Assembly: GCA_014189685.1 (NCBI GenBank)
Contig: DVAB01000011.1
Location: 1 to 14,998, forward strand
From: Candidatus Naiadarchaeum limnaeum
GTDB lineage: Archaea > Undinarchaeota > Undinarchaeia > Undinarchaeales > Naiadarchaeaceae
Reading direction: 5' to 3'
DNA length: 14,998 bases
Shown here: one piece after another, positions 2,859-14,623 of the stretch
Layout: the number at the start of each line of letters is the position of its first letter
How positions within the stretch are numbered: position 1 is the stretch's first letter
Notes under the pieces: generated by a model
What the model was told of the DNA's origin: nothing
Seen by the model: the letters and a program-made list of their open reading frames with translations, nothing else
The model's database searches: none
Position numbers and translations under genes: made by a program

Positions 2859-4190
2859 TTAGCGCCCGCGAATTTTTATCATATGATGCACTCGTTTTTG
2901 CACTAACTTATCTGTTCCAATATCTTTTCTATAAAATAGTTTATCGCTTTTAACAGCTGAGATTGCACTCTCCGTCATCTTTTCTGCGCCGGAAATTGTT
3001 GTGTCAAATCCAACAACTCCAAATGAGCGCGATTTTGTTGTGGAAATTTTTCCATCATCCTCATTGACAGAGGCATAGTAAAGTTTTGCGCCTTTTTGTT
3101 TCACTAATGATTCATTAATTCCAACTTGCGCATCTGCTTCTGGATTATCCGGATAGCCTTTTGGAACTAAATATTTGCAAACAGAAGCCTTTTTTTCAAA
3201 ATCTGCATTAATTAATCGGCTTTCTAAAATTGAAAGGCAAATTGAATTGAAATCTGTTTTTAATATTGGCAAAACATTCATTGCCTCTGGATCTCCAAAG
3301 CGGACATTATATTCTAGAAGCTTTGGGCCATGGGCCGTGAGCATAAATCCGCCGTACAAAATTCCTTTGTAAATTATCCCATATTCTTTTTGCAATGCCT
3401 GAACAGAGCGCTCCATAATTTTTACAGCATCTTCCAAATCTTTTTTTTCGACAAAAGGTAGAAGATGATTTGAATCAGAATATGAACCCATTCCTCCTGT
3501 ATTTGGGCCTTCGTCATTTTCAAAAGCTCGCTTGTGATCTTGAACTAAAGGCATTGGAACAATTTTTCTACCATCTGTAAAAGCCTGCAGAGAAAATTCT
3601 TCGCCCTCCAATTTTTCCTCGAGAACAACTGTATTCATTCCACCAATTTGTTTTTCAACAATTTCATATGCATAATTGCGTACCTCTAAAAAATCTTTTA
3701 AATGCTCACCTTGGATTTTTACTCCTTTTCCTCCTGTTAATCCTGCAGGCTTTACAACTAATTCAGTATCAAATATCCTCATAGCCGTATCAATTTCGCG
3801 CACAGTATTGCATACAGCAAATTTTGGGATTCCATCTTTTACATATTTCTGCAAAAGATTCCTGCAAAATCCTTTATCACTTTCCAATCTTGCAGCGCCT
3901 TTTGTTGGCCCGCAGACTTTTATTCCGTTTTTAATTAAAATGTCTGCAACTCCTTGAGCTAAAGGCTCCTCTGGGCCGACAAAAACATAGTCTGGCCTTA
4001 TATGAAGAGCGAATTTTAAAACACTGTTTGGGTCCTTTATATCTCCAACTGAGAATTCTTTTGCTAGTTTTATAATTCCGGGGTTGCGCGCGGACATAAA
4101 AGCAAATAAATCAGCGCTTTTTGCTATGGATTCTGCTATTGCATGTTCGCGCGCTCCATTTCCGATTAATAATGCCTTAATTTTTTCCAT
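2859..4190 (-). CDS. purD: Phosphoribosylamine-glycine ligase (GAR synthetase)
   Basis: PurD joins phosphoribosylamine to glycine with ATP to give GAR, the second step of purine synthesis, in the cytoplasm. The 443 residues match the usual family length (about 420-440). The N-terminal motif LLIGNGAREHAIAES (residues 8-22) is the PurD form of the first nucleotide-like fold. The ATP-grasp core shows VVKPAGLTGGKGV (145-157), EEKLEGEEFS (191-200), QDHKRAFENDEGPNTGGMGSYS (217-238) and LLEYNVRFGDPE (291-302), which carries the Mg-binding Glu and Asn. The frame stays open upstream to an ATG at 4316, but that start would lie on the TATA box and add 42 residues translated from hairpins, so I place the start at 4190, right before the conserved motif. 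The leader holds three tandem hairpins. PurD is separated from purF by a small opposite-strand gene. Confidence 0.96.
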   Translation of the reverse strand: MEKIKALLIGNGAREHAIAESIAKSADLFAFMSARNPGIIKLAKEFSVGDIKDPNSVLKFALHIRPDYVFVGPEEPLAQGVADILIKNGIKVCGPTKGAARLESDKGFCRNLLQKYVKDGIPKFAVCNTVREIDTAMRIFDTELVVKPAGLTGGKGVKIQGEHLKDFLEVRNYAYEIVEKQIGGMNTVVLEEKLEGEEFSLQAFTDGRKIVPMPLVQDHKRAFENDEGPNTGGMGSYSDSNHLLPFVEKKDLEDAVKIMERSVQALQKEYGIIYKGILYGGFMLTAHGPKLLEYNVRFGDPEAMNVLPILKTDFNSICLSILESRLINADFEKKASVCKYLVPKGYPDNPEADAQVGINESLVKQKGAKLYYASVNEDDGKISTTKSRSFGVVGFDTTISGAEKMTESAISAVKSDKLFYRKDIGTDKLVQKRVHHMIKIRGR

Positions 4191-4541: not shown

Positions 4542-6014
4542 TCAAACAGCTGCTTTTGCTTCTTTCCATTCTGAGCGCTCTTTATCCCTTGTGTCCCCAA
4601 GCAATTTTTTCTGCTCCTCAGAAACATCTGTAACATATTCTCCTGTCAAGCAGGCCATGCACAAATTGTTTCCAACTCCGATTGCATGCTTTAAGCGCTC
4701 AATTTCTTGATATGTAAGAGAATCCGCACCGATTTCTTTTCTGATTTCCTCAATTGTTTTTTCGCCTGCAATCAATTCTGTTTTGTTTGCAAAATCAATT
4801 GCATAGAAGCAGGGATATTTTATTGGAGGGCAGGTAACAACAAAATGAACTTCAGTTGCGCCAGCATTTCTAACCATATCAACAATTTTTCTGCTTGTTG
4901 TGCCACGCACAATTGAATCGTCGATTAAAATTACGCGCTTTCCTTTTATTTCGCGAACGACAGGATTTAATTTTATGCGGACTCCAAATTCGCGCTTTTT
5001 CTGATGGGGCATAATAAATGTGCGGCCAACATATCTGTTCTTAATTAATCCTTCTCTATATGGCAGGCCAACTGCTTGTGCAAAACTTACAGCAGCAGTT
5101 TTTGAGGTTTCAGGAACAGGGATAACAACATCTGCTTTTATTCCTTTTTTCTTCCAGATTTCTGCAAGCTCGTTCCCCAGATTTAAGCGAACCTCATAAA
5201 CTCCTTTGTTCTCGATAACAGAATCTGGGCGCGCAAAATAAACCCATTCAAACATACAGGCCCTTTTCTGCCCCCTTACAACAACTTTTGAATAGTATTG
5301 CATATTTTCATCAACAAGAATTGCTTCCCCCGGCTCCAAGTCTTTTATAATCCTGAATCCGAGCGTGTCAAGGGCAACGCTTTCAGAGGCAAATCCATAT
5401 GCGACAACTTTTCCATCAACAATTTTTTCCCCAAAAACCAGCGGGCGGATTGCATTCTGGTCCCTGAAAGCCAGAAGGCCCTTGTCCGCAACAACTGAAA
5501 CGCAGGAATATCCTCCGTTAATCTGCTGCATTGCATTTTTTAAAGCTTCAAAAACCTCATTCTCTGAGCAAGTGTCCTCTTTGCAAACTTTTTGTAACTC
5601 ACTTGCAAATAATCCAAGAATAACTTCAACATCATTGTTTGAGCGCATTCTTCTGTTGTGCTTTTTCAGCAATATTTGTTTTAATTGATTATAATTCACA
5701 AGATTTCCATTATGGCAAATTCCAATCCCAAATGGATTATAAGTGATAAATGGTTGGACATCTTTTTTTGGGTCGCTTCCTATAGTTGGATAGCGCACAT
5801 GTCCTATTCCAATTCTGCCTTTTAACTCAGAAAGATTTTGTTCGTTATAAAATTCGCTCACAAGCCCAATGCCTTTGTGCACATAAAATTCATTTCCATC
5901 AAAAGTTAAAATTCCGGTCCCATCTTGTCCGCGATGTTGTAGGGTGCTCAAAGAAACGTATAAATCATAAGCAACATTGCTGTCTCTAGAAATAAGTCCT
6001 ATAAAGCCGCACAT
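4542..6014 (-). CDS. purF: Amidophosphoribosyltransferase (iron-sulfur type)
   Basis: PurF is the committed step of purine synthesis: glutamine-derived ammonia displaces pyrophosphate from PRPP to give phosphoribosylamine. The protein is 490 residues. It starts MCGFIGL, so Cys2 becomes the N-terminal nucleophile after Met removal, with no propeptide. The class II glutaminase domain shows QHRGQDGTG (26-34), GHVRYPTIG (71-79) and CHNGNLVN (100-107). The PRPP loop is VILIDDSIVRGTTS (361-374). Cysteines at 253, 402, 452 and 455 (CMFEW, PCFY, LCMAC) match the four [4Fe-4S] ligands of the Bacillus-type enzyme. The mRNA probably starts near 6037 from a TATA box at 6060-6071. A purine-rich GGGGGAG lies three bases before the ATG and may act as a ribosome binding site. 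It sits 68 bases downstream of purQ. Confidence 0.97.
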   Translation of the reverse strand: MCGFIGLISRDSNVAYDLYVSLSTLQHRGQDGTGILTFDGNEFYVHKGIGLVSEFYNEQNLSELKGRIGIGHVRYPTIGSDPKKDVQPFITYNPFGIGICHNGNLVNYNQLKQILLKKHNRRMRSNNDVEVILGLFASELQKVCKEDTCSENEVFEALKNAMQQINGGYSCVSVVADKGLLAFRDQNAIRPLVFGEKIVDGKVVAYGFASESVALDTLGFRIIKDLEPGEAILVDENMQYYSKVVVRGQKRACMFEWVYFARPDSVIENKGVYEVRLNLGNELAEIWKKKGIKADVVIPVPETSKTAAVSFAQAVGLPYREGLIKNRYVGRTFIMPHQKKREFGVRIKLNPVVREIKGKRVILIDDSIVRGTTSRKIVDMVRNAGATEVHFVVTCPPIKYPCFYAIDFANKTELIAGEKTIEEIRKEIGADSLTYQEIERLKHAIGVGNNLCMACLTGEYVTDVSEEQKKLLGDTRDKERSEWKEAKAAV

Positions 6015-6082: not shown

Positions 6083-6889
6083 TTAGAATTTTTTCTGCAA
6101 ATACTCAATAATAGATTCAAATATTACCATTCCATCCCCGCTTGCGCGATTATTTCGGTGAAAATCGTAGTGGTTAAAAGGATCCTGCACCCTTTCAGGG
6201 TGGGGCATCCAGCCAACGACATTTCCTCCCAAGTTGCAAATTCCTGCAATGTCAAAAGTCGTGCCGTTTGGATTGAAAGGATATTTTCCATTTGCAAATT
6301 CTCCTGCGGGAGTACAAAATCTGAAAACAATCTGATTATTTTCCTGCAATTCTTTCAAAGCTTGCTTATCTTTTCCAGGAACAAATAAAAGCCTTCCCTC
6401 TCCGTGCCCGTGCGCGAAATTTAAAACTTTTCCAATTTCAACATTTTCTGTAAAAGGTGTTTTGCGCAAATGCTTTACATAATTAAATCCTCCCTCGAAT
6501 TTTGAACTTGCGTTTGTTGTCAAAGCCGCTTCAATATTTCCAGGCAATAATCCTGCAGAGGTTAAAACCTGAAAGCCATTGCAGATTCCACCAATTATTT
6601 TTCCCTCATTCGCGAATTCGCGCACTTCTTTTTCCAATTTACTTTGCATTAAAGAGGCAAAAACAGCGCCTGAGCGGATATAATCGCCTGCTGAAAATCC
6701 TCCAGGGATAATTAAAGCTTGGTAATCAGATAATTTTCTCCGCCTTTCGCCTGAAGAATCGCCTGTCAATTGTTTTAGATGGACTTTTTCTGCAAAAACA
6801 TTTAAACGGCGGAATGCGCGCTCTGTTTCATCCTCGCAGTTTGTGCCTTCCATTCTTACGATACAAACTTTTATTTCTTCTTTTTTCAT
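6083..6889 (-). CDS. purQ: FGAM synthase, glutaminase subunit
   Basis: PurQ hydrolyses glutamine and passes ammonia to PurL in the PurS/PurL/PurQ complex that turns FGAR into FGAM. The 268 residues form a class I (triad) glutamine amidotransferase. The nucleophile elbow is GGICNGFQVLT with Cys103, and the other triad residues are His230 and Glu232 in WMPHPER. PGGFSAGDYIRSGA (62-75) and the HGHGEG segment (160-165) are typical of PurQ. It is somewhat longer than the bacterial subunits of about 225 residues, mainly through an insertion in the second half. Its ATG overlaps the TGA of the small membrane protein gene in a 4-base ATGA, so it is translationally coupled to that gene rather than directly to purL. 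Confidence 0.96.
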   Translation of the reverse strand: MKKEEIKVCIVRMEGTNCEDETERAFRRLNVFAEKVHLKQLTGDSSGERRRKLSDYQALIIPGGFSAGDYIRSGAVFASLMQSKLEKEVREFANEGKIIGGICNGFQVLTSAGLLPGNIEAALTTNASSKFEGGFNYVKHLRKTPFTENVEIGKVLNFAHGHGEGRLLFVPGKDKQALKELQENNQIVFRFCTPAGEFANGKYPFNPNGTTFDIAGICNLGGNVVGWMPHPERVQDPFNHYDFHRNNRASGDGMVIFESIIEYLQKKF

Positions 6890-7299
6890 TGTACCTTGTA
6901 TTCTTTTATATCAACTATTTCAGTAATTTTAGGAAAACCTACTTTGCAATAGGGCGTATACATCTGAGGGACTATTGGGCCTGAAAACTTCGGTCTGAGT
7001 CCTTCGCATAATCTTTTTGTAGCCATAACATAAAATACCTGAGCTTCAAGTGTTGTGTTATCAGAACGCCATCTTTCATATGTGGAATTCCTCTCCAAGT
7101 AAAGCGATACATAAACTCCAAGTCCTTTGAGTAGAGCGGGAGAATCTATAACAAAAATATAACCACCCTTCGCACCACTAATATGACCGACAACTGCTGC
7201 TTCTGTGTAGTCTAACTTTTCAGGAAGGGTCACAAATATGGCCACACTACTAATTATTACAGCGAGTATAACTATTACAATGAAAAATTTATTTTTCAT
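6886..7299 (-). CDS. Small membrane-anchored protein embedded between purL and purQ
   Basis: A 137-residue protein beginning MKNKFFIVIVILAVIISSVAIFV, that is two Lys and then one hydrophobic segment (about residues 5-24): a signal anchor or signal peptide. The remaining 110 residues are a mixed, probably beta-rich soluble domain likely outside the cytoplasm, with two cysteines (RLCEG, PYCKVGFP) that could form a disulfide and two NST/NTT sequons. No family is recognised. It overlaps purL at its start and purQ at its end by four bases each (ATGA), so its translation appears coupled to both. No purine step is known to need such a protein. It may be a passenger, or a factor linking the pathway to the envelope. 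Confidence 0.75.
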   Translation of the reverse strand: MKNKFFIVIVILAVIISSVAIFVTLPEKLDYTEAAVVGHISGAKGGYIFVIDSPALLKGLGVYVSLYLERNSTYERWRSDNTTLEAQVFYVMATKRLCEGLRPKFSGPIVPQMYTPYCKVGFPKITEIVDIKEYKVQ

Positions 7300-9692
7300 T
7301 TTCCGCCCTCAACTATTTTGTAAATCGGTGAATGCCAAGCTTTGTAAAGCTCTTTCAAACTCAAATCAACTAAATTATCAATTTTTAAACGCGGTTTCTT
7401 TGTTGTTTGCCCAAGTTTTAGGAATGAAACTTTACTTCTTCTCAAAATTTTCTCGAACTCAGAGGAATTTTCTTCTTTAACTTCTGTCAGCCAGCGGCCG
7501 TTTGATTCTGAGAACAATCTATAATCCGGTCTTTTCACAGCTCCGTTTATTTTTCTAATTGAAACCTCTGCTCCATATCCACCAGAAGCAAGCATTTCAG
7601 TTAAAGCAACTCCAAGTCCGCCTTCAGATAAATCATGACAGCTGGCTAGAAGCTTGAGGCTGGAAGCTTGAAGGAGTGCGTTCATTTTTGCTTTTGTTTT
7701 CTTTGGATTTACTCGCGGCACAACTTTGCCCCAAGAATTGTGAACTTGCTTAAAATATTCTGAACCACCCAATTCATTGTAAGTTTCCCCAACTAAGTAA
7801 AGAAAATTATCTGCTCCTTTTACATCAGCGCTCACAGATTTTCTTACATCATCAATAATTCCCATTGTCATAATTGTAGGAGTTGGCAGAATCGGACCTG
7901 CGTGCGATTCATTATACAAACTTACATTTCCAGAAACAAAAGGAACATTGAACTCGCGCGCTGCAAAGTGCATTCCTTCACAACATTTCCAAATATAGCC
8001 CATATTCTCCTCTTTTTCAGGATTTGCAAAATTCAAACAATCAACCATTGTGTGTGGAGTTGCTCCGACTGAAACAATATTTCTGAAACTTTCTTCAACA
8101 GAGCTTGCTGCACCCCAGTAAGGATCTAATTTACAAAATCGTGGGTTCACATCTGTTGTGATTGCTAATCCTTTAAAAGAATCTTCTACGGGCCGAATAA
8201 TTGCAGCATCTCCATGGCCAAGAGTTTCAAATTTTCCCTGCAAAGGAAAGAGCGCAGTATTTCCGCGAACATTTGAATCATACTGACGAATTATCCATTC
8301 TTTGCTGGCAATATTAAATGAGCCTAAAGTTTTGAGCAAAACATTTTCCAAACTTTTTGGCTGAGGAACATTTAATTCTACTTTTGCGCTCTCAGGAATT
8401 TTTGCAAATGGGCGTTTGTATTCTTTTGCCTCAATAATAAAGGGGAGCTCCATGTCATAAATTTTGTAACCTTTATATTTAATCGAAAGCCGATTTCCAC
8501 GCACTGCTTTTCCAATAATTGAAGCAGGCAAACCCCAGAATTCAAAAATTTCCAAAACCTTGTATACATTCTCAGGCTTGCAAGTGAGCATCATTCTTTC
8601 CTGGGATTCTGAAACCCAAATTTCCCAGGGAGCCATGTCATGCTCGCGCAGATGAACTTTTTCCAAATCAACTTCTGCGCCCAAATTTGCAGCGTGCGCC
8701 ATTTCTCCAACTACACAGGAAAGTCCTCCGCCGCCCAAATCTTTCAATCCAGTTAGCAAACCTTTTTCATTTGCTTCTAAACAAGCATGAATCAAAGGCT
8801 CTTTTGTAATCGGGTCTCCCAATTGAACTGCAGGCCTGGATTCAGAATCAGATTCTGCTGTGAGTTCAACCGAAGCAAAAGTAACCCCGTGAATTCCATC
8901 TCTTCCTGTGCTTCCGCCAACTAAAACAAAAACATCTCCTGCATTTCCAGCTCTGCTATGAACTAAATTTTTATTTTTCATAATTCCAACGCAGCCTGCA
9001 TTCACCAAACAATTTCCAACATAAGAATCATCAAAGTAAACCATTCCTCCTGCATTTGGAATTCCAACTGAATTTCCATAGGAGGATATGCCTTTTACAA
9101 CTCCACGCAACAAGTAGAGGGGATGCTTTACTCCATCTGGAACTTTTTCCTCTTTCAAATCCAAAGGCCCAAAAAACAAGGGGTCAACAACAGCAATTGG
9201 CTGGGCGCCCATGCACATTATATCTCTTAAGATTCCACCAATTCCAGTTGAAGCGCCTCCATAAGGGTCAAGAGCAGACGGATGATTATGCGATTCAATT
9301 TTTACAACATAGCTGTGCTCATTGTCAAATTTTACAACAGCTGCATCCTCTGAAACAGCTACCAAAGCTTGTGGGGCTTTAACTTTTAAAAAAGTCTCGC
9401 GCATAACTGGCTTGCTTGTTTTATAAGAACAGTGCTCGCTCCATGATTGAGCTAAACTTTCCAACTCAACATCAGTTGGATTTCTTTTTCCTCTGGAAAA
9501 ATATTCCTTAATTCTTTTCATTTCGTCTAGAGAAAGAGAAAGGTGTCTCTCTTTGCTAATCTGAATCAACTCAGAATCAGTCGCGCTGCGCACATCAATT
9601 TCATAAAATGGAAAAGAAGTATCGAGTCTTCTATACAAGTGAGACAAAGAATCTCGACTGGATGTTTTTAGCATTTGGGAGTCCATGAGCAT
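7296..9692 (-). CDS. purL: FGAM synthase, large catalytic subunit (small-type PurL)
   Basis: PurL uses ATP and ammonia from PurQ to convert FGAR to FGAM. At 798 residues it is the short archaeal/Bacillus-type PurL that needs separate PurS and PurQ, not the 1300-residue fused enzyme. FYEIDVRSATDSEL (29-42) begins the conserved region. WSEHCSYKTSKP (84-95), the substrate motif KIESHNHPSALDPYGGASTGIGG (131-153), GNSVGIPNAGG (206-216) and a glycine-rich DLGGGGLSCVVGEMAH follow. A repeat of the AIR-synthase-like fold fills the C-terminal half (CHDLSEGGLGVALTEM). The first ATG (9692) overlaps the purS stop as TAATG. Later ATGs at 9686 and 9674 are also possible, because the first 28 residues are not part of the conserved core. 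The usual family length is about 700-760, so the protein is slightly long. Confidence 0.97.
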   Translation of the reverse strand: MLMDSQMLKTSSRDSLSHLYRRLDTSFPFYEIDVRSATDSELIQISKERHLSLSLDEMKRIKEYFSRGKRNPTDVELESLAQSWSEHCSYKTSKPVMRETFLKVKAPQALVAVSEDAAVVKFDNEHSYVVKIESHNHPSALDPYGGASTGIGGILRDIMCMGAQPIAVVDPLFFGPLDLKEEKVPDGVKHPLYLLRGVVKGISSYGNSVGIPNAGGMVYFDDSYVGNCLVNAGCVGIMKNKNLVHSRAGNAGDVFVLVGGSTGRDGIHGVTFASVELTAESDSESRPAVQLGDPITKEPLIHACLEANEKGLLTGLKDLGGGGLSCVVGEMAHAANLGAEVDLEKVHLREHDMAPWEIWVSESQERMMLTCKPENVYKVLEIFEFWGLPASIIGKAVRGNRLSIKYKGYKIYDMELPFIIEAKEYKRPFAKIPESAKVELNVPQPKSLENVLLKTLGSFNIASKEWIIRQYDSNVRGNTALFPLQGKFETLGHGDAAIIRPVEDSFKGLAITTDVNPRFCKLDPYWGAASSVEESFRNIVSVGATPHTMVDCLNFANPEKEENMGYIWKCCEGMHFAAREFNVPFVSGNVSLYNESHAGPILPTPTIMTMGIIDDVRKSVSADVKGADNFLYLVGETYNELGGSEYFKQVHNSWGKVVPRVNPKKTKAKMNALLQASSLKLLASCHDLSEGGLGVALTEMLASGGYGAEVSIRKINGAVKRPDYRLFSESNGRWLTEVKEENSSEFEKILRRSKVSFLKLGQTTKKPRLKIDNLVDLSLKELYKAWHSPIYKIVEGGK

Positions 9693-9937
9693 TATTTTAT
9701 TGTAATTGAATAATTATTTATCACAGGATTCGCGAGCAAGCGCTTGCATGCTTCCTCAACTTCTTCCTGTGCCTTTTCTTTTGTAGGAGCACTAACATCA
9801 ATAACAAAAATTTTTGCAGTTTTTACTTCTCCAATTCCTTTAAATCCTAACAATTGGAGAGAATTTTGTACAGTATTGGCTTCTGCATCCAGAATTCCCC
9901 TTTTTAATTCAACCCTAACTTCAGCTTTAAAGACCAT
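9692..9937 (-). CDS. purS: FGAM synthase, PurS subunit
   Basis: PurS is the small dimeric subunit that bridges PurL and PurQ and is thought to help ammonia channelling. The 81 residues match the family length. The pattern is typical: VRVELKRGILDAEANTVQNSLQLLGF (residues 8-33), then a beta strand containing VKTAKIFVIDV and a helix EKAQEEVEEACKRLLANPVI before the last strand NYSITIK. It has a TATA box about 31 bases upstream, within the end of the lipoprotein gene, so it probably heads its own purS-purL-membrane protein-purQ transcript. The stop shares one base with the purL ATG. Confidence 0.95.
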   Translation of the reverse strand: MVFKAEVRVELKRGILDAEANTVQNSLQLLGFKGIGEVKTAKIFVIDVSAPTKEKAQEEVEEACKRLLANPVINNYSITIK

Positions 9938-9977: not shown

Positions 9978-10385
9978 TTATCTCGTTCTAATCAGGTTGC
10001 ATTCAGTATCCACTTCAACAAAATGTTTTGCGGTTCCGTTATTAAATGCAGCGCATTGAGTTGCAATATCATTGTCAATTTCTATTCTTGGATTGTGTGC
10101 AACATCGCATACCCAATTTGCTTGAATTTCATTGCTTAAACATGGGCCTGTGCTCAAATTAACTTCCAAATCTTTTTGTTTATTGCAGAGCTGTACACAC
10201 GCTACTAGTGCTTCGCCACTTCCTATAAATGGAGTTTCAAATTCAGGTTTTTTAAGGCTCTTTATTGCGCTGACATTTGGTGCGCTTGAGGTAAACGCCT
10301 CGCCAAGTTTACCTACTTTTTCAGTACAGCCACTAAATAAAACAACTGTTGAGAGCAAAATTATTAATATCAACAAATTTTTCAT
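9978..10385 (-). CDS. Cysteine-rich lipoprotein embedded after purC
   Basis: A 135-residue protein with a clear lipoprotein signal peptide: MKN, a hydrophobic core LLILIILLSTVVL, then the lipobox LFSGC with Cys20 as the predicted lipidated residue. The mature part has a short linker rich in Ser, Ala and Pro, followed by a domain with six further cysteines (CVQLC, GPCLS, WVCDV, TQCAAF, TECNL) that probably form disulfides outside the cell. I recognise no binding domain. Its ATG overlaps the purC TGA by four bases (ATGA), so it is the last cistron of purP-like/purP/purC. A solute-binding or sensor role is possible but not shown by the sequence. Confidence 0.8.
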   Translation of the reverse strand: MKNLLILIILLSTVVLFSGCTEKVGKLGEAFTSSAPNVSAIKSLKKPEFETPFIGSGEALVACVQLCNKQKDLEVNLSTGPCLSNEIQANWVCDVAHNPRIEIDNDIATQCAAFNNGTAKHFVEVDTECNLIRTR

Positions 10386-11275
10386 ATAAGTTTTTTCCCT
10401 GTCAATTTTTCATATGCCTCAATATATTTTTTGCTCGTGCCTTCAACAACTTCTTTTGGAAGAACAGGAATTGGAGGCTCCTTGTTCCAATTGATTGAAA
10501 GTAAATAATCGCGAACATACTGTTTATCAAATGAGGGCTGCGGCCCGCCAGCTTTGTATTTATCAAGCGGCCAAAATCTGCTTGAGTCAGGTGTGAGCAT
10601 CTCATCAATTACGATTATTTCATTATTTTCATCGCGGCCGAATTCAAATTTTGTGTCTGCGATTATAATTCCGTGTTTCAAAGCATAATTAGCTGCGCGC
10701 TCATAAATTTCCAAAGTTTTTTTGCGCAAAAATTCTGCTGTTTCCGCCCCCACTATTTCGCAGGTTTTTTCGAAACTGATATTTATGTCATGCGCGCCGC
10801 CCTCTTCTTTTGTCGCAGGAGTAAAAATTGGCTTAGGCAATTTATCAGATTCTTTTAACCCTTTTGGAAGTTTTATTCCGCAAACACTTTGGGTTTCTTT
10901 GTATTCTTTCCACCCACTGCCTGAAAGATAGCCGCGCGCAACGCATTCAACAGGAATTGGCTGAACTTTTTTAACAATAACTGCGCGGTCCTTCAGCTCA
11001 TGAACTTTTTTCAAATTTGCAGGGAATTTTTCAAAATCAGAAATTAAAATATGATTTGGAATTGTTTTTTTCATCATATCAAACCAGAATAAAGAAATTT
11101 TGTTCAGAACAATTCCTTTATATGGAATTGGGTTTGGCAAAATTCGGTCAAATGCAGAAATGCGGTCAGTCGCAACCATCAAATAGGAGTTGCTTAAATC
11201 ATACATCTCGCGGACTTTTCCGGATTTAAATTTTTTCAGGGGCAAGTCAAGGGTTGTGATTGTTTGCGCACTCAT
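10382..11275 (-). CDS. purC: SAICAR synthetase
   Basis: PurC condenses CAIR with aspartate using ATP to give SAICAR. The protein is 297 residues, the longer form also seen in yeast Ade1 and some archaea, rather than the 235-residue bacterial form. KSGKVREMYDLSNSYLMVATDRISAFD (17-43) is the typical N-terminal nucleotide-binding part. PIPVECVARGYLSGSGW (106-122) and IADTKFEFG (205-213) are the two family signatures, and IDEMLTPDSSRFW (223-235) follows. Its start overlaps the purP stop in ATGA, and its own stop overlaps the lipoprotein start the same way. The enzymes that supply CAIR (PurM, PurE) and use SAICAR (PurB) are not in the window. Confidence 0.97.
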   Translation of the reverse strand: MSAQTITTLDLPLKKFKSGKVREMYDLSNSYLMVATDRISAFDRILPNPIPYKGIVLNKISLFWFDMMKKTIPNHILISDFEKFPANLKKVHELKDRAVIVKKVQPIPVECVARGYLSGSGWKEYKETQSVCGIKLPKGLKESDKLPKPIFTPATKEEGGAHDINISFEKTCEIVGAETAEFLRKKTLEIYERAANYALKHGIIIADTKFEFGRDENNEIIVIDEMLTPDSSRFWPLDKYKAGGPQPSFDKQYVRDYLLSINWNKEPPIPVLPKEVVEGTSKKYIEAYEKLTGKKLI

Positions 11276-12270
11276 GATATCACCTCATCCAACCTCTTTT
11301 CTTTTTGCGCGCGCTTTATTTCCATTGCGATCCTGCGCCCCATTGAAATTGGCTTTCCATATTTTAAGTATGTGTAAGGTGAGCCTGGCATCCAAACGTT
11401 TGTTCCTGCAACAATCCGCGCAGAAATTTCGAAAACGTACATCTCTAACTTATCCGTGCAAACCAATTCAATTGAGTAAGGCCCTATTAATCCAGGGGAA
11501 AAAAGTTCCTTTGATTTTTCAACTAATCTATCAGCAAGATCAAAAACTTCTGGCAAAAGAGATTCGCGCATCATAATTGGAATATTTCCAGTTATCACAT
11601 AAGTTGGCGGCATGTAAAAGTCCGCAGGCATTCTTGGCAAGCCATCTGCGTTTGATTCGTATCTTAAATCAATTCCAATTAATTCATTTTCTTTTTCCAG
11701 AGGTGAGTAGAAGAAATGCGGATAAAATCTTGTCCCTAAAACATATTCCTGCAATTGCATTTTTTCAGGGTCAAAAGTTCCTACTTTTTCATTAAACTCT
11801 TTTTCACTCTGGACTAAGGCATAACCACGGCCGCCTTTTGCGCCAAAAAGTTTTACTAAAGTTAATCTATCAATTTCATCTGGCTTTAAGAAATCATGTG
11901 GAATTTTAATTCCTGCTTTTCTAAACCACTGATAACTTTTTCTTCTATCAGCTTCCCATTCCAAAACTTTTTTGTTCCCAAACATCGGAACATTTAATTT
12001 CAAAAGTTCGCGGCCGCCAATATATTCAACGAAACTTCCATGTGGGATTAAAATACTGTTTTTTTCGTTTAAAGTTTTCTGCGCTTTATCATCTAAAATA
12101 TCCTTAAAATCATCTACAACTAAAACATCATCCGCTAAATTAAATCTTTCATAAAACTTATCGCGCTTTATATTTGAAATTAACAGGGTTTTAAATCCTT
12201 CTTCCTTTGCGCCTTTTAAAATTTGCAATGCTGAATGCGAAGCTAGGGTTGCAATTGTTGGTTTATTCAT
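11272..12270 (-). CDS. purP: FAICAR synthetase (formate-dependent, archaeal)
   Basis: PurP uses ATP and free formate to formylate AICAR to FAICAR, replacing the folate-dependent PurH step in many archaea. The 332 residues match the family. ATLASHSALQILKGAK (7-22) is the N-terminal substrate region. IPHGSFVEYIGG (75-86), VPMFGNKKVLEWEADR (94-109), the ATP-grasp glycine loop GAKGGRGY (143-150), EYVLGTRFYPHFFYSPL (175-191), DLRYESNADGLPR (201-213), YVITGNIPIMMRESLLP (224-240) and FEISARIVAGTN (280-291) all agree with the well-known Methanocaldococcus enzyme as I remember it. The start sits on the purP-like stop in an ATGA overlap. This copy is the likely working FAICAR synthetase of the organism. 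Confidence 0.95.
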   Translation of the reverse strand: MNKPTIATLASHSALQILKGAKEEGFKTLLISNIKRDKFYERFNLADDVLVVDDFKDILDDKAQKTLNEKNSILIPHGSFVEYIGGRELLKLNVPMFGNKKVLEWEADRRKSYQWFRKAGIKIPHDFLKPDEIDRLTLVKLFGAKGGRGYALVQSEKEFNEKVGTFDPEKMQLQEYVLGTRFYPHFFYSPLEKENELIGIDLRYESNADGLPRMPADFYMPPTYVITGNIPIMMRESLLPEVFDLADRLVEKSKELFSPGLIGPYSIELVCTDKLEMYVFEISARIVAGTNVWMPGSPYTYLKYGKPISMGRRIAMEIKRAQKEKRLDEVIS

Positions 12271-13397
12271 GTCACAACCTCGCTTAAACGATCTTGTTTC
12301 ATAGCTTCCTTAATTTCCATCGCAATTCTTTCCCCATACGAGAGCGAATTTCCATGCAAGTAAGAGGAGTACGGAGTGAAAATTGTTCCAGGCGAGCCAG
12401 GAATTCTAAATGAAACATCAAAGCAAACAAATTCCTCTTTTGGTGGCCCAGCCGTAACTGCTCCTTGCAAAGCAAAGGGGCCTACAATTCCGGGCGGAGC
12501 TTCAGTTTGTAAAGTTTTTACAAATTTTTCTCCTAATTCAAAGGCTTGTTCAAGTAAACTTTCTTTTACAGTTACTGCGATATGCCCTGTCTCAATATAT
12601 TTAGGATTTAAATATTGCAAAACCTCGTGCTGCTCATGAGCGGGCAATCTCACTAAGCCATCAATATTTGTCTGCCTTCTTGTATCAGTTCCCATTAATT
12701 CAAGCTCATCGTTTAAAGCAGAGTAGAAATAATTAAAATTAACTTGCGCGCCAACAATATATTCTTCGATTACCGCGCGTTTCAGATCTTCCTCAGTAAT
12801 TACTAATTTATCAATTAATTCCTGCGATTTTTTCTCATATTCCCCATAATTTGAGGCAAAGAAAAATGCGCGCTCATAGCCACGCTCGGCTTCTGCAACT
12901 TTTACAATGCTCAATTTGCTAATGTGTTTTGGATTTTTGAAAATTTGCGGGAAAGGAATTTTTGCTTTTTCTAAAAAATCGTATTGATTTGGCTTTTGAT
13001 CTCTTTCTTCTGCGCGCAAAAGGAATCGGTTTCCAAAAATAGGAACAGGAAAGTTTTTTTCAATATCCTTGAAGTCAAAATAAACCCAGAAATATCTGTT
13101 GTGGATAAAAATTGTGTTTAAAGATTGCAATTTTTTAACAACATCAGGCTTGGTTAAGTGGGAAAATTTATCAAGAACAATTGTTTTGTCAATTATTCCT
13201 TTGTTTCCGCGGGTTTTGAAATATTTATCATAAGTTTTTTCGCGGCCGCGCTGGCAGACTGCAACAGTTTTAAAGCCAAATTTCTTTGCGCCGCGCGCAA
13301 CATCTAAGGCTGAATGCCCGCCAAGAACTCCGATATGAATGTCTTCAAAATTATACTTCTCAAGTATTTTATTGAAATCGTATGCCTGTTCTCCCAT
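12267..13397 (-). CDS. Divergent PurP-family ATP-grasp protein
   Basis: A 376-residue homologue of PurP and first gene of the purP-purC operon. The overall order is kept: IGVLGGHSALDVARGAK (22-38), VPIFGNRFLLRAEERD (118-133), EEYIVGAQVNFNYFYSAL (211-228), NIDGLVRLPA (244-253), PPGIVGPFALQ (301-311) and GERIAMEIKEA (355-365). Several motifs of the neighbouring PurP are changed: PHGSF becomes HNRYF (99-103), the glycine loop GAKGGRGY becomes AEAERGY (168-174), RYESN becomes RRQTN (240-244), and SARIVAGTN becomes SFRIPGSPG (329-337). Substrate or chemistry may therefore differ. An ATG at 13484 would add 29 residues, but the TATA box at 13417-13427 lies inside that stretch, so the start at 13397 (MGEQAYDF) is preferred. 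The paralogue could be a regulatory subunit or do another step of the pathway. Confidence 0.85.
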   Translation of the reverse strand: MGEQAYDFNKILEKYNFEDIHIGVLGGHSALDVARGAKKFGFKTVAVCQRGREKTYDKYFKTRGNKGIIDKTIVLDKFSHLTKPDVVKKLQSLNTIFIHNRYFWVYFDFKDIEKNFPVPIFGNRFLLRAEERDQKPNQYDFLEKAKIPFPQIFKNPKHISKLSIVKVAEAERGYERAFFFASNYGEYEKKSQELIDKLVITEEDLKRAVIEEYIVGAQVNFNYFYSALNDELELMGTDTRRQTNIDGLVRLPAHEQHEVLQYLNPKYIETGHIAVTVKESLLEQAFELGEKFVKTLQTEAPPGIVGPFALQGAVTAGPPKEEFVCFDVSFRIPGSPGTIFTPYSSYLHGNSLSYGERIAMEIKEAMKQDRLSEVVT

Positions 13398-13416: not shown

Positions 13417-13427
13417 TATTTAAAAGG
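13417..13427 (-). promoter_or_regulatory. TATA box for the purP-like/purP/purC operon
   Basis: Minus-strand CTTTTAAATAC, preceded by AAAC as a possible BRE, is centred about 25 bases before the ATG at 13397. This predicts a leaderless transcript and fixes the start codon of the first gene. Confidence 0.6.
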
Positions 13428-14529: not shown

Positions 14530-14623
14530 TGCGGCGACCGAGATTCGAACTCGGATAATTAGCTATCTTTCGACCTTTAAAGGTCGGTGGAAGGCTAATG
14601 TCCTACCGTTAGACTATCGCCGC
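14530..14623 (-). tRNA. tRNA-Gly (anticodon UCC) with a 23-nt intron
   Basis: Read on the minus strand, the acceptor GCGGCGA pairs with TCGCCGC and is followed by discriminator A; CCA is not encoded. The D arm is GTC-TAACGGTAG-GAC, the anticodon stem TTAGC/GCTAA, the variable loop TTAT, and the T arm CCGAG-TTCGAAT-CTCGG. The mature anticodon loop is CTTCCAA with anticodon TCC. The intron is 14565-14587, after A37, at the usual archaeal site. A bulge-helix-bulge can be drawn: bulges CAC and ATA flank a central helix CTTC/AAAG (three pairs and one C-A mismatch), with an inner stem CGACC/GGTCG. Confidence 0.95.

Follow-up and report, generated by a model that had tools for sequence, protein, structure and literature searches.

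A cluster II PurP paralogue at the head of an archaeal purine operon, a candidate IMP cyclohydrolase

The purine operon and its two purP genes

The window that we analysed is a whole contig of 14,998 bases (C45) from an archaeal genome of 0.98 Mb, which is in 52 contigs and 98% complete. Its minus strand carries purine genes in the order purP(II)-purP(I)-purC-orf-purS-purL-orf-purQ-purF-purD, and from purP(II) to purQ most adjoining genes share one or four bases. The first gene of the operon (12267-13397) has an ATG start and encodes a cluster II PurP paralogue of 376 amino acids, as assigned by Pfam domains (PF06849 and PF06973), residues and tree. Reading of the open frames showed that its stop codon and the start codon of the next gene share an ATGA (12267-12270). 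The next gene (11272-12270) encodes a cluster I PurP of the Ib type, 332 amino acids long, which is predicted to be a formate- and ATP-dependent FAICAR synthetase with an intact GAKGGRG loop, N258 and E310. A preliminary description of this DNA had reported two PurP-family genes overlapping by ATGA, with the divergent copy heading the purine operon, and the shared bases and the gene order confirmed both points.

The purC gene (SAICAR synthetase, 10382-11275; PRK13961, 425.7 bits, above the cut-off) overlaps purP(I) by four bases. It overlaps, again by four bases, a lipoprotein-like open reading frame of 135 amino acids inside the operon (9978-10385), for which a Pfam search gave no match. Then come purS (9692-9937; TIGR00302, 94 bits) and purL (7296-9692; TIGR01736, 862.7 bits). 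A second open reading frame (6886-7299) of 137 amino acids, with an N-terminal hydrophobic stretch and no match in a Pfam search, has four-base overlaps with both purL and purQ (6083-6889; TIGR01737, 219 bits). The series ends with purF (4542-6014; TIGR01134, 476.9 bits) and purD (2859-4190; TIGR00877, 424.2 bits), and all of these genes are on the minus strand.

An alternative, longer reading of purP(II) begins at a TTG and reaches 13484. The ATG at 13397 is the likelier start, because a TATA-like box, TTTAAATA (13417-13424, minus strand), lies about 20 bases 5' of it; this box is a candidate leaderless promoter by consensus only. Elsewhere on the contig, a tRNA gene on the minus strand (14530-14623; Rfam, 60.7 bits) was missed by ARAGORN, and its extra length suggests an archaeal intron.

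Assignment of the upstream copy to PurP cluster II

Both copies carry PF06849 and PF06973, and PurP structures are the nearest solved relatives of both. In the upstream protein PF06849 scored 132.7 bits against a cut-off of 25, and PF06973 scored 229.7 bits against a cut-off of 23.8. A phmmer comparison with the FAICAR synthetase of M. jannaschii (2r7k) gave E values of 8.5e-76 for the upstream copy and 8.1e-101 for the downstream copy. The two copies are 34% identical to each other, and identity to MJ0136 was 49% for the downstream copy and 40% for the upstream copy. The upstream protein, when modelled with AlphaFold2 (pLDDT 91.4), matched 2r7m with a TM score of 0.87, and the nine best Foldseek matches of this model were all PurP structures.

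PurP-like proteins were divided into clusters I and II by Brown, Hoopes, White and Sarisky in 2011 (PMC3261824). Cluster II was defined by a His in place of Asn at MJ0136 position 258 and by a loop that exceeds the glycine ATP loop by two residues; both clusters conserve H27 and R314 (PMC3261824). We built a tree of 128 PurP sequences with SH-aLRT support, in which cluster II was set apart with a support of 100 and the upstream copy fell inside it, as sister to the gene of genome G062 (support 97). The window genome contains one cluster II and one cluster Ib purP. With near certainty the upstream copy belongs to cluster II, an ancient clade of paralogues within the ATP-grasp family of FAICAR synthetases. 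The preliminary description had allowed that this copy might be just a lineage-specific duplicate, which the clade with support 100 contradicts.

Active-site residues

All the motifs quoted in the preliminary description are present in the sequence, and three of its pairings between the upstream and downstream copies were correctly aligned (HNRYF with PHGSF, RRQTN with RYESN, and SFRIPGSPG with SARIVAGTN). The fourth, AEAERGY with GAKGGRGY, was not. The upstream loop AEAERGYERAF has a two-residue insertion (GY) before E163-R164, so that the RGY of AEAERGY is not homologous to the RGY of GAKGGRGY, and the homologous residues are E163-R164-A165-F166 of ERAF.

Position 258 is His in the window copy and in all 67 of the 67 cluster II sequences, and Asn in 83/83 cluster I sequences. 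Fifteen positions are listed as invariant in the 67 cluster II sequences (H27, R51, R93, K156, E163, R164, N208, R228, Q244, H258, E265, S266, Q297, D310 and R314), and every one is present in the window copy. Cluster I is invariant or nearly so at G93, G163, N258 and E310. The replacements from cluster I to cluster II are G93 to R93, G163 to E163, Y/C208 to N208, N258 to H258 and E310 to D310, while R164, Q244 and Q297 are fixed in cluster II at positions that vary in cluster I. The upstream copy thus lacks the FAICAR synthetase features of MJ0136, namely the glycine-rich ATP loop, N258 and E310, and the preliminary description was right to see in it a divergent PurP paralogue whose active site is altered. 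H27, S266 and R314 contact AICAR and the formyl group in the enzyme of M. jannaschii (PMC3261824). At position 94, a phosphate contact, the window copy has Tyr instead of Ser.

Mean pairwise identity was 0.47 in cluster II and 0.48 in cluster Ib, with 33 and 36 invariant columns, respectively. Constraint on cluster II is equal to that on cluster Ib and, judged from the alignment, the site is retooled and under selection.

Purine routes in the window genome

We searched the window genome for purO and purH. PurO was absent, and an intact, full-length PurH was encoded on contig C42 (644 bits, cut-off 528) with the known motifs of both of its domains. The gene order there is glyA-folD-purH, the first two genes being our reading of the sequence. 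Bin contamination is unlikely, because an archaeal IF-5A-like protein is encoded on the same contig, whose GC content of 38-39% equals that of the window. Contig C39 carries purN (217.7 bits, above the cut-off), and its neighbours are, by our reading, genes for folylpolyglutamate synthase and 5-formyl-THF cyclo-ligase. The preliminary description had supposed that the cyclisation step might be missing; because purH is intact, FAICAR cyclisation is not missing in this genome, and with purH and purN both found we reject a missing step here. A purO or purH gene elsewhere in the genome was one half of what that description had named as refuting its proposal. With a folate-dependent route present (GlyA/FolD/PurN/PurH), the PurP pair is therefore an additional route in this organism.

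Five other genomes of the same small phylum (G001-G005; 75-86% complete) showed no PurP gene, and PurL was found only in G001. The purine pathway of the window genome is unusual among the sampled relatives.

Distribution of PurP clusters and cyclohydrolases

We searched 197 archaeal genomes for PurP, PurO, PurH, PurT, PurN and PurL, and classified the PurP copies. PurP was present in 94 genomes: 23 with cluster I only, 66 with both clusters and 5 with cluster II only. All 23 cluster-I-only genomes contained PurO. One further genome, G192, had been a candidate for cluster I without a cyclohydrolase and was dropped, its cluster II copy being truncated at a contig edge. A known cyclohydrolase was found in 26 of the 71 cluster II genomes (21 full PurH, 1 PurH2-like and 4 PurO) and not found in 45.

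Among the 113 genomes with PurL, 67 had cluster II, 41 of them without and 26 with a known IMP cyclohydrolase. Of the PurL genomes without cluster II, 42 contained a known cyclohydrolase and 4 did not; these four, lacking cluster II, PurO and PurH2 alike, are 75, 84, 87 and 89% complete. Cluster II was thus present in 41/45 of the PurL genomes without PurO and PurH2, a proportion that an obligate partnership of the two PurPs predicts equally, and it was present in all such genomes that are at least 90% complete. The co-occurrence of this clade with loss of PurO and PurH2, which the preliminary description had proposed to look for, was therefore seen in 41 PurL-bearing archaeal genomes. Fisher's test gave P = 5e-8 for the pattern, which is not independent evidence and amounts to about one evolutionary contrast, because the cluster-I-only genomes form one clade (Ia).

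Clusters I and II occurred together in 66 of the 71 cluster II genomes whichever cyclohydrolase was present, and Ib was never found without II. Each of the 21 PurP genomes that have full PurH kept II together with I, as did the one with a PurH2-like protein and the four with PurO. The two genes were neighbours within about 165 bases, often overlapping, in 26 of the 61 genomes in which both copies could be read. PurO and PurH2 vary inside families that keep the pair (f9, f11 and f15), and four genomes (G020, G041, G054 and G181) keep it without PurL, PurO or PurH. These results showed that the I+II pair behaves as one unit, inherited as a module.

Cluster II without detectable cluster I was seen in G027, G077, G118, G152 and G153, all metagenome-assembled genomes (MAGs) of 85-95% completeness. 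In the G077 locus (L076), cluster II purP is the first gene of a purine operon that continues with a purC-purS fusion, purQ and purL, and a search of that genome found no cluster I PurP. The PurPs of G027 (L138) and G153 (L140) are highly divergent and cluster II-like, again with no cluster I detected in their genomes, and the position-258 stretch is entirely absent from the L140 protein. As a separate observation, G006, G012, G068, G094 and G187 have PurL and lack both PurN and any strong match to PurT.

We scanned GTDB genomes for cluster II loci and found them in Thermoplasmata, Methanofastidiosia, Altiarchaeota, Woesearchaeota and Asgard archaea, and likewise in CPR bacteria and other bacterial-labelled MAGs. 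In 14 bacterial-labelled loci, mostly CPR, purH and purP I-purP II share a stretch of a few kilobases (L179, L193, L197, L210, L213, L214, L217, L220, L225, L227, L228, L230, L231 and L232). Their labels include Peregrinibacteria, Peribacteria, Gracilibacteria, Nitrospirota and others, and some of these taxon labels may be wrong. The set of purH, purP I and purP II in these MAGs is apparently redundant. Of the 50 genomes behind the scanned loci, 41 had a PurH sequence, 2 had PurO, and in 8 no known cyclohydrolase was seen.

Discussion

In many archaea, Crenarchaeota and Pyrococcus among them, no enzyme has been assigned to the final reaction of purine synthesis (PMC3261824). The suggestion that one of two PurPs is the missing IMP cyclohydrolase dates to 2011, in a paper that also remarked that the phyletic pattern is imperfect (PMC3261824). 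The cluster II family, its features and the cyclohydrolase suggestion were therefore already known. What the present analysis adds is the scale of the survey, the invariance of the replacement residues, the purH-purP-purP clusters in bacteria and the presence of PurH in the window genome. We found no later experimental resolution of the cluster II role in the open-access literature; most subscription journals lay outside the scope of this search.

The reading that we favour, with a probability of roughly 0.42, is that the I+II module converts AICAR to IMP, with cluster II as a FAICAR cyclase acting after PurP I. The module would use formate and ATP, in parallel with the folate-dependent PurH: PurP I would formylate AICAR, and cluster II would close the ring, giving IMP and water from FAICAR. 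For this, cluster II would rely on the nucleotide site that it has kept (H27, S266 and R314), and the new His at the carboxamide contact, together with loss of the glycine ATP loop, may have turned a formate ligase scaffold into a cyclase. In the window genome the module would be a second, formate-based route beside GlyA/FolD/PurN/PurH, with no missing step to rescue. The wider proposal, that cluster II is the long-missing archaeal IMP cyclohydrolase and forms with Ib a self-contained formate-dependent AICAR-to-IMP module of archaea and CPR bacteria, is a shade more tentative.

Only ring closure by cluster II explains the 41 genomes that have no other candidate. The same holds for the four genomes left with just the pair, in which FAICAR by itself would be a dead end, and for the retention of the AICAR and formyl contacts alongside a changed ATP loop. 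Several observations nevertheless count against a FAICAR cyclase. The rule that a genome without cluster II has PurO comes down to about one contrast, the cluster-I-only genomes being a single clade. A pure cyclohydrolase should be dispensable beside PurH, yet the pair is kept there, even in bacteria. The P. furiosus proteins PF1517 (Ib) and PF0421 (II) were reported to be inactive alone as AICAR formyltransferases (PMC3261824), which hints that Ib needs a partner. Parts of the ATP-grasp site (K156, Q297 and D310) survive in cluster II, where we only infer the loss of ATP use, and the window copy has the Tyr at phosphate contact 94.

The strongest competitor, possible although less probable than ring closure, is that cluster II serves the Ib PurP as an indispensable subunit or activator within a heteromeric FAICAR synthetase; it would perform no formylation of its own, and cyclisation would fall to PurH, PurO or another enzyme. 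Such a partnership better explains both the retention of the pair beside PurH and the inactivity of the single Pyrococcus proteins. It would also fit the joint occurrence of I and II regardless of cyclohydrolase, the frequent adjacency of the two genes, and their position next to purH in CPR bacteria. On the other hand, strictly conserved replacement residues in the cluster II nucleotide site go beyond the needs of a structural partner, and 41 genomes would be left with a cyclohydrolase yet to be identified. Cluster II also occurs without detected cluster I in five genomes, albeit MAGs that are 85-95% complete, and in G077 it does so in an otherwise ordinary purine operon.

We consider it unlikely that cluster II catalyses some other reaction, or is a regulatory sensor of an AICAR-like nucleotide, with the absence of PurO and PurH2 a coincidence. 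Ligand sensing would be compatible with conserved residues in the nucleotide site and a remodelled ATP loop, and retention beside PurH does need explaining, but cluster II is near-universal in purine-making genomes without both known cyclohydrolases and sits in a purine operon. Far less probable is that the pair supplies a missing GAR formyltransferase (the PurN/PurT step) rather than the AICAR step. Several I+II genomes with PurL and without PurN or strong PurT, for example G006, G012, G068, G094 and G187, would fit such a substitution, but many I+II genomes have PurN or PurT, and in the window genome it is unsupported, since purN is present. That the upstream copy is a lineage-specific duplicate or a decaying pseudo-enzyme is hardly credible: several family motifs appear degraded if set against the neighbouring copy alone, but cluster II is monophyletic and extends across most archaeal lineages and into some bacteria, which rules out the first, and 33 invariant columns with the same constraint as cluster Ib rule out the second.

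A FAICAR cyclase remains our preferred reading, and cluster II is the leading candidate for the missing archaeal IMP cyclohydrolase because it is in all the surveyed purine-making archaeal genomes of at least 90% completeness without PurO and PurH2. The proposal is directly testable. Since the pair persists beside PurH, co-occurrence by itself cannot settle the role of cluster II. Caution is also needed in annotation, as cluster II genes are easily annotated as FAICAR synthetase despite the loss of the ATP loop.

Comparison with known systems

Compared with known cluster II PurPs such as P. furiosus PF0421, the window copy showed nothing categorically different. It shares with them H258, the longer, glycine-poor loop, H27 and R314, and a cluster Ib partner that is often adjacent. 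Its differences are the Tyr at 94 and its position at the head of an operon in a small archaeal genome, where complete PurH and PurN are encoded as well. MJ0136 (2r7k/l/m/n, cluster Ia) has the same fold as the upstream copy and shares with it H27, K156, R228, E265, S266 and R314, whereas in cluster II the glycine ATP loop, N258 and E310 are replaced. Genomes with the MJ0136 type use PurO and are without cluster II. Two families of IMP cyclohydrolase are known, PurO and PurH2, and archaeal members of both have been used to complement an E. coli strain without the IMP cyclohydrolase domain of PurH (PMC6797443). Cluster II is unrelated to both families in fold and sequence; the reaction proposed for it is the same, and this equivalence is hypothetical.
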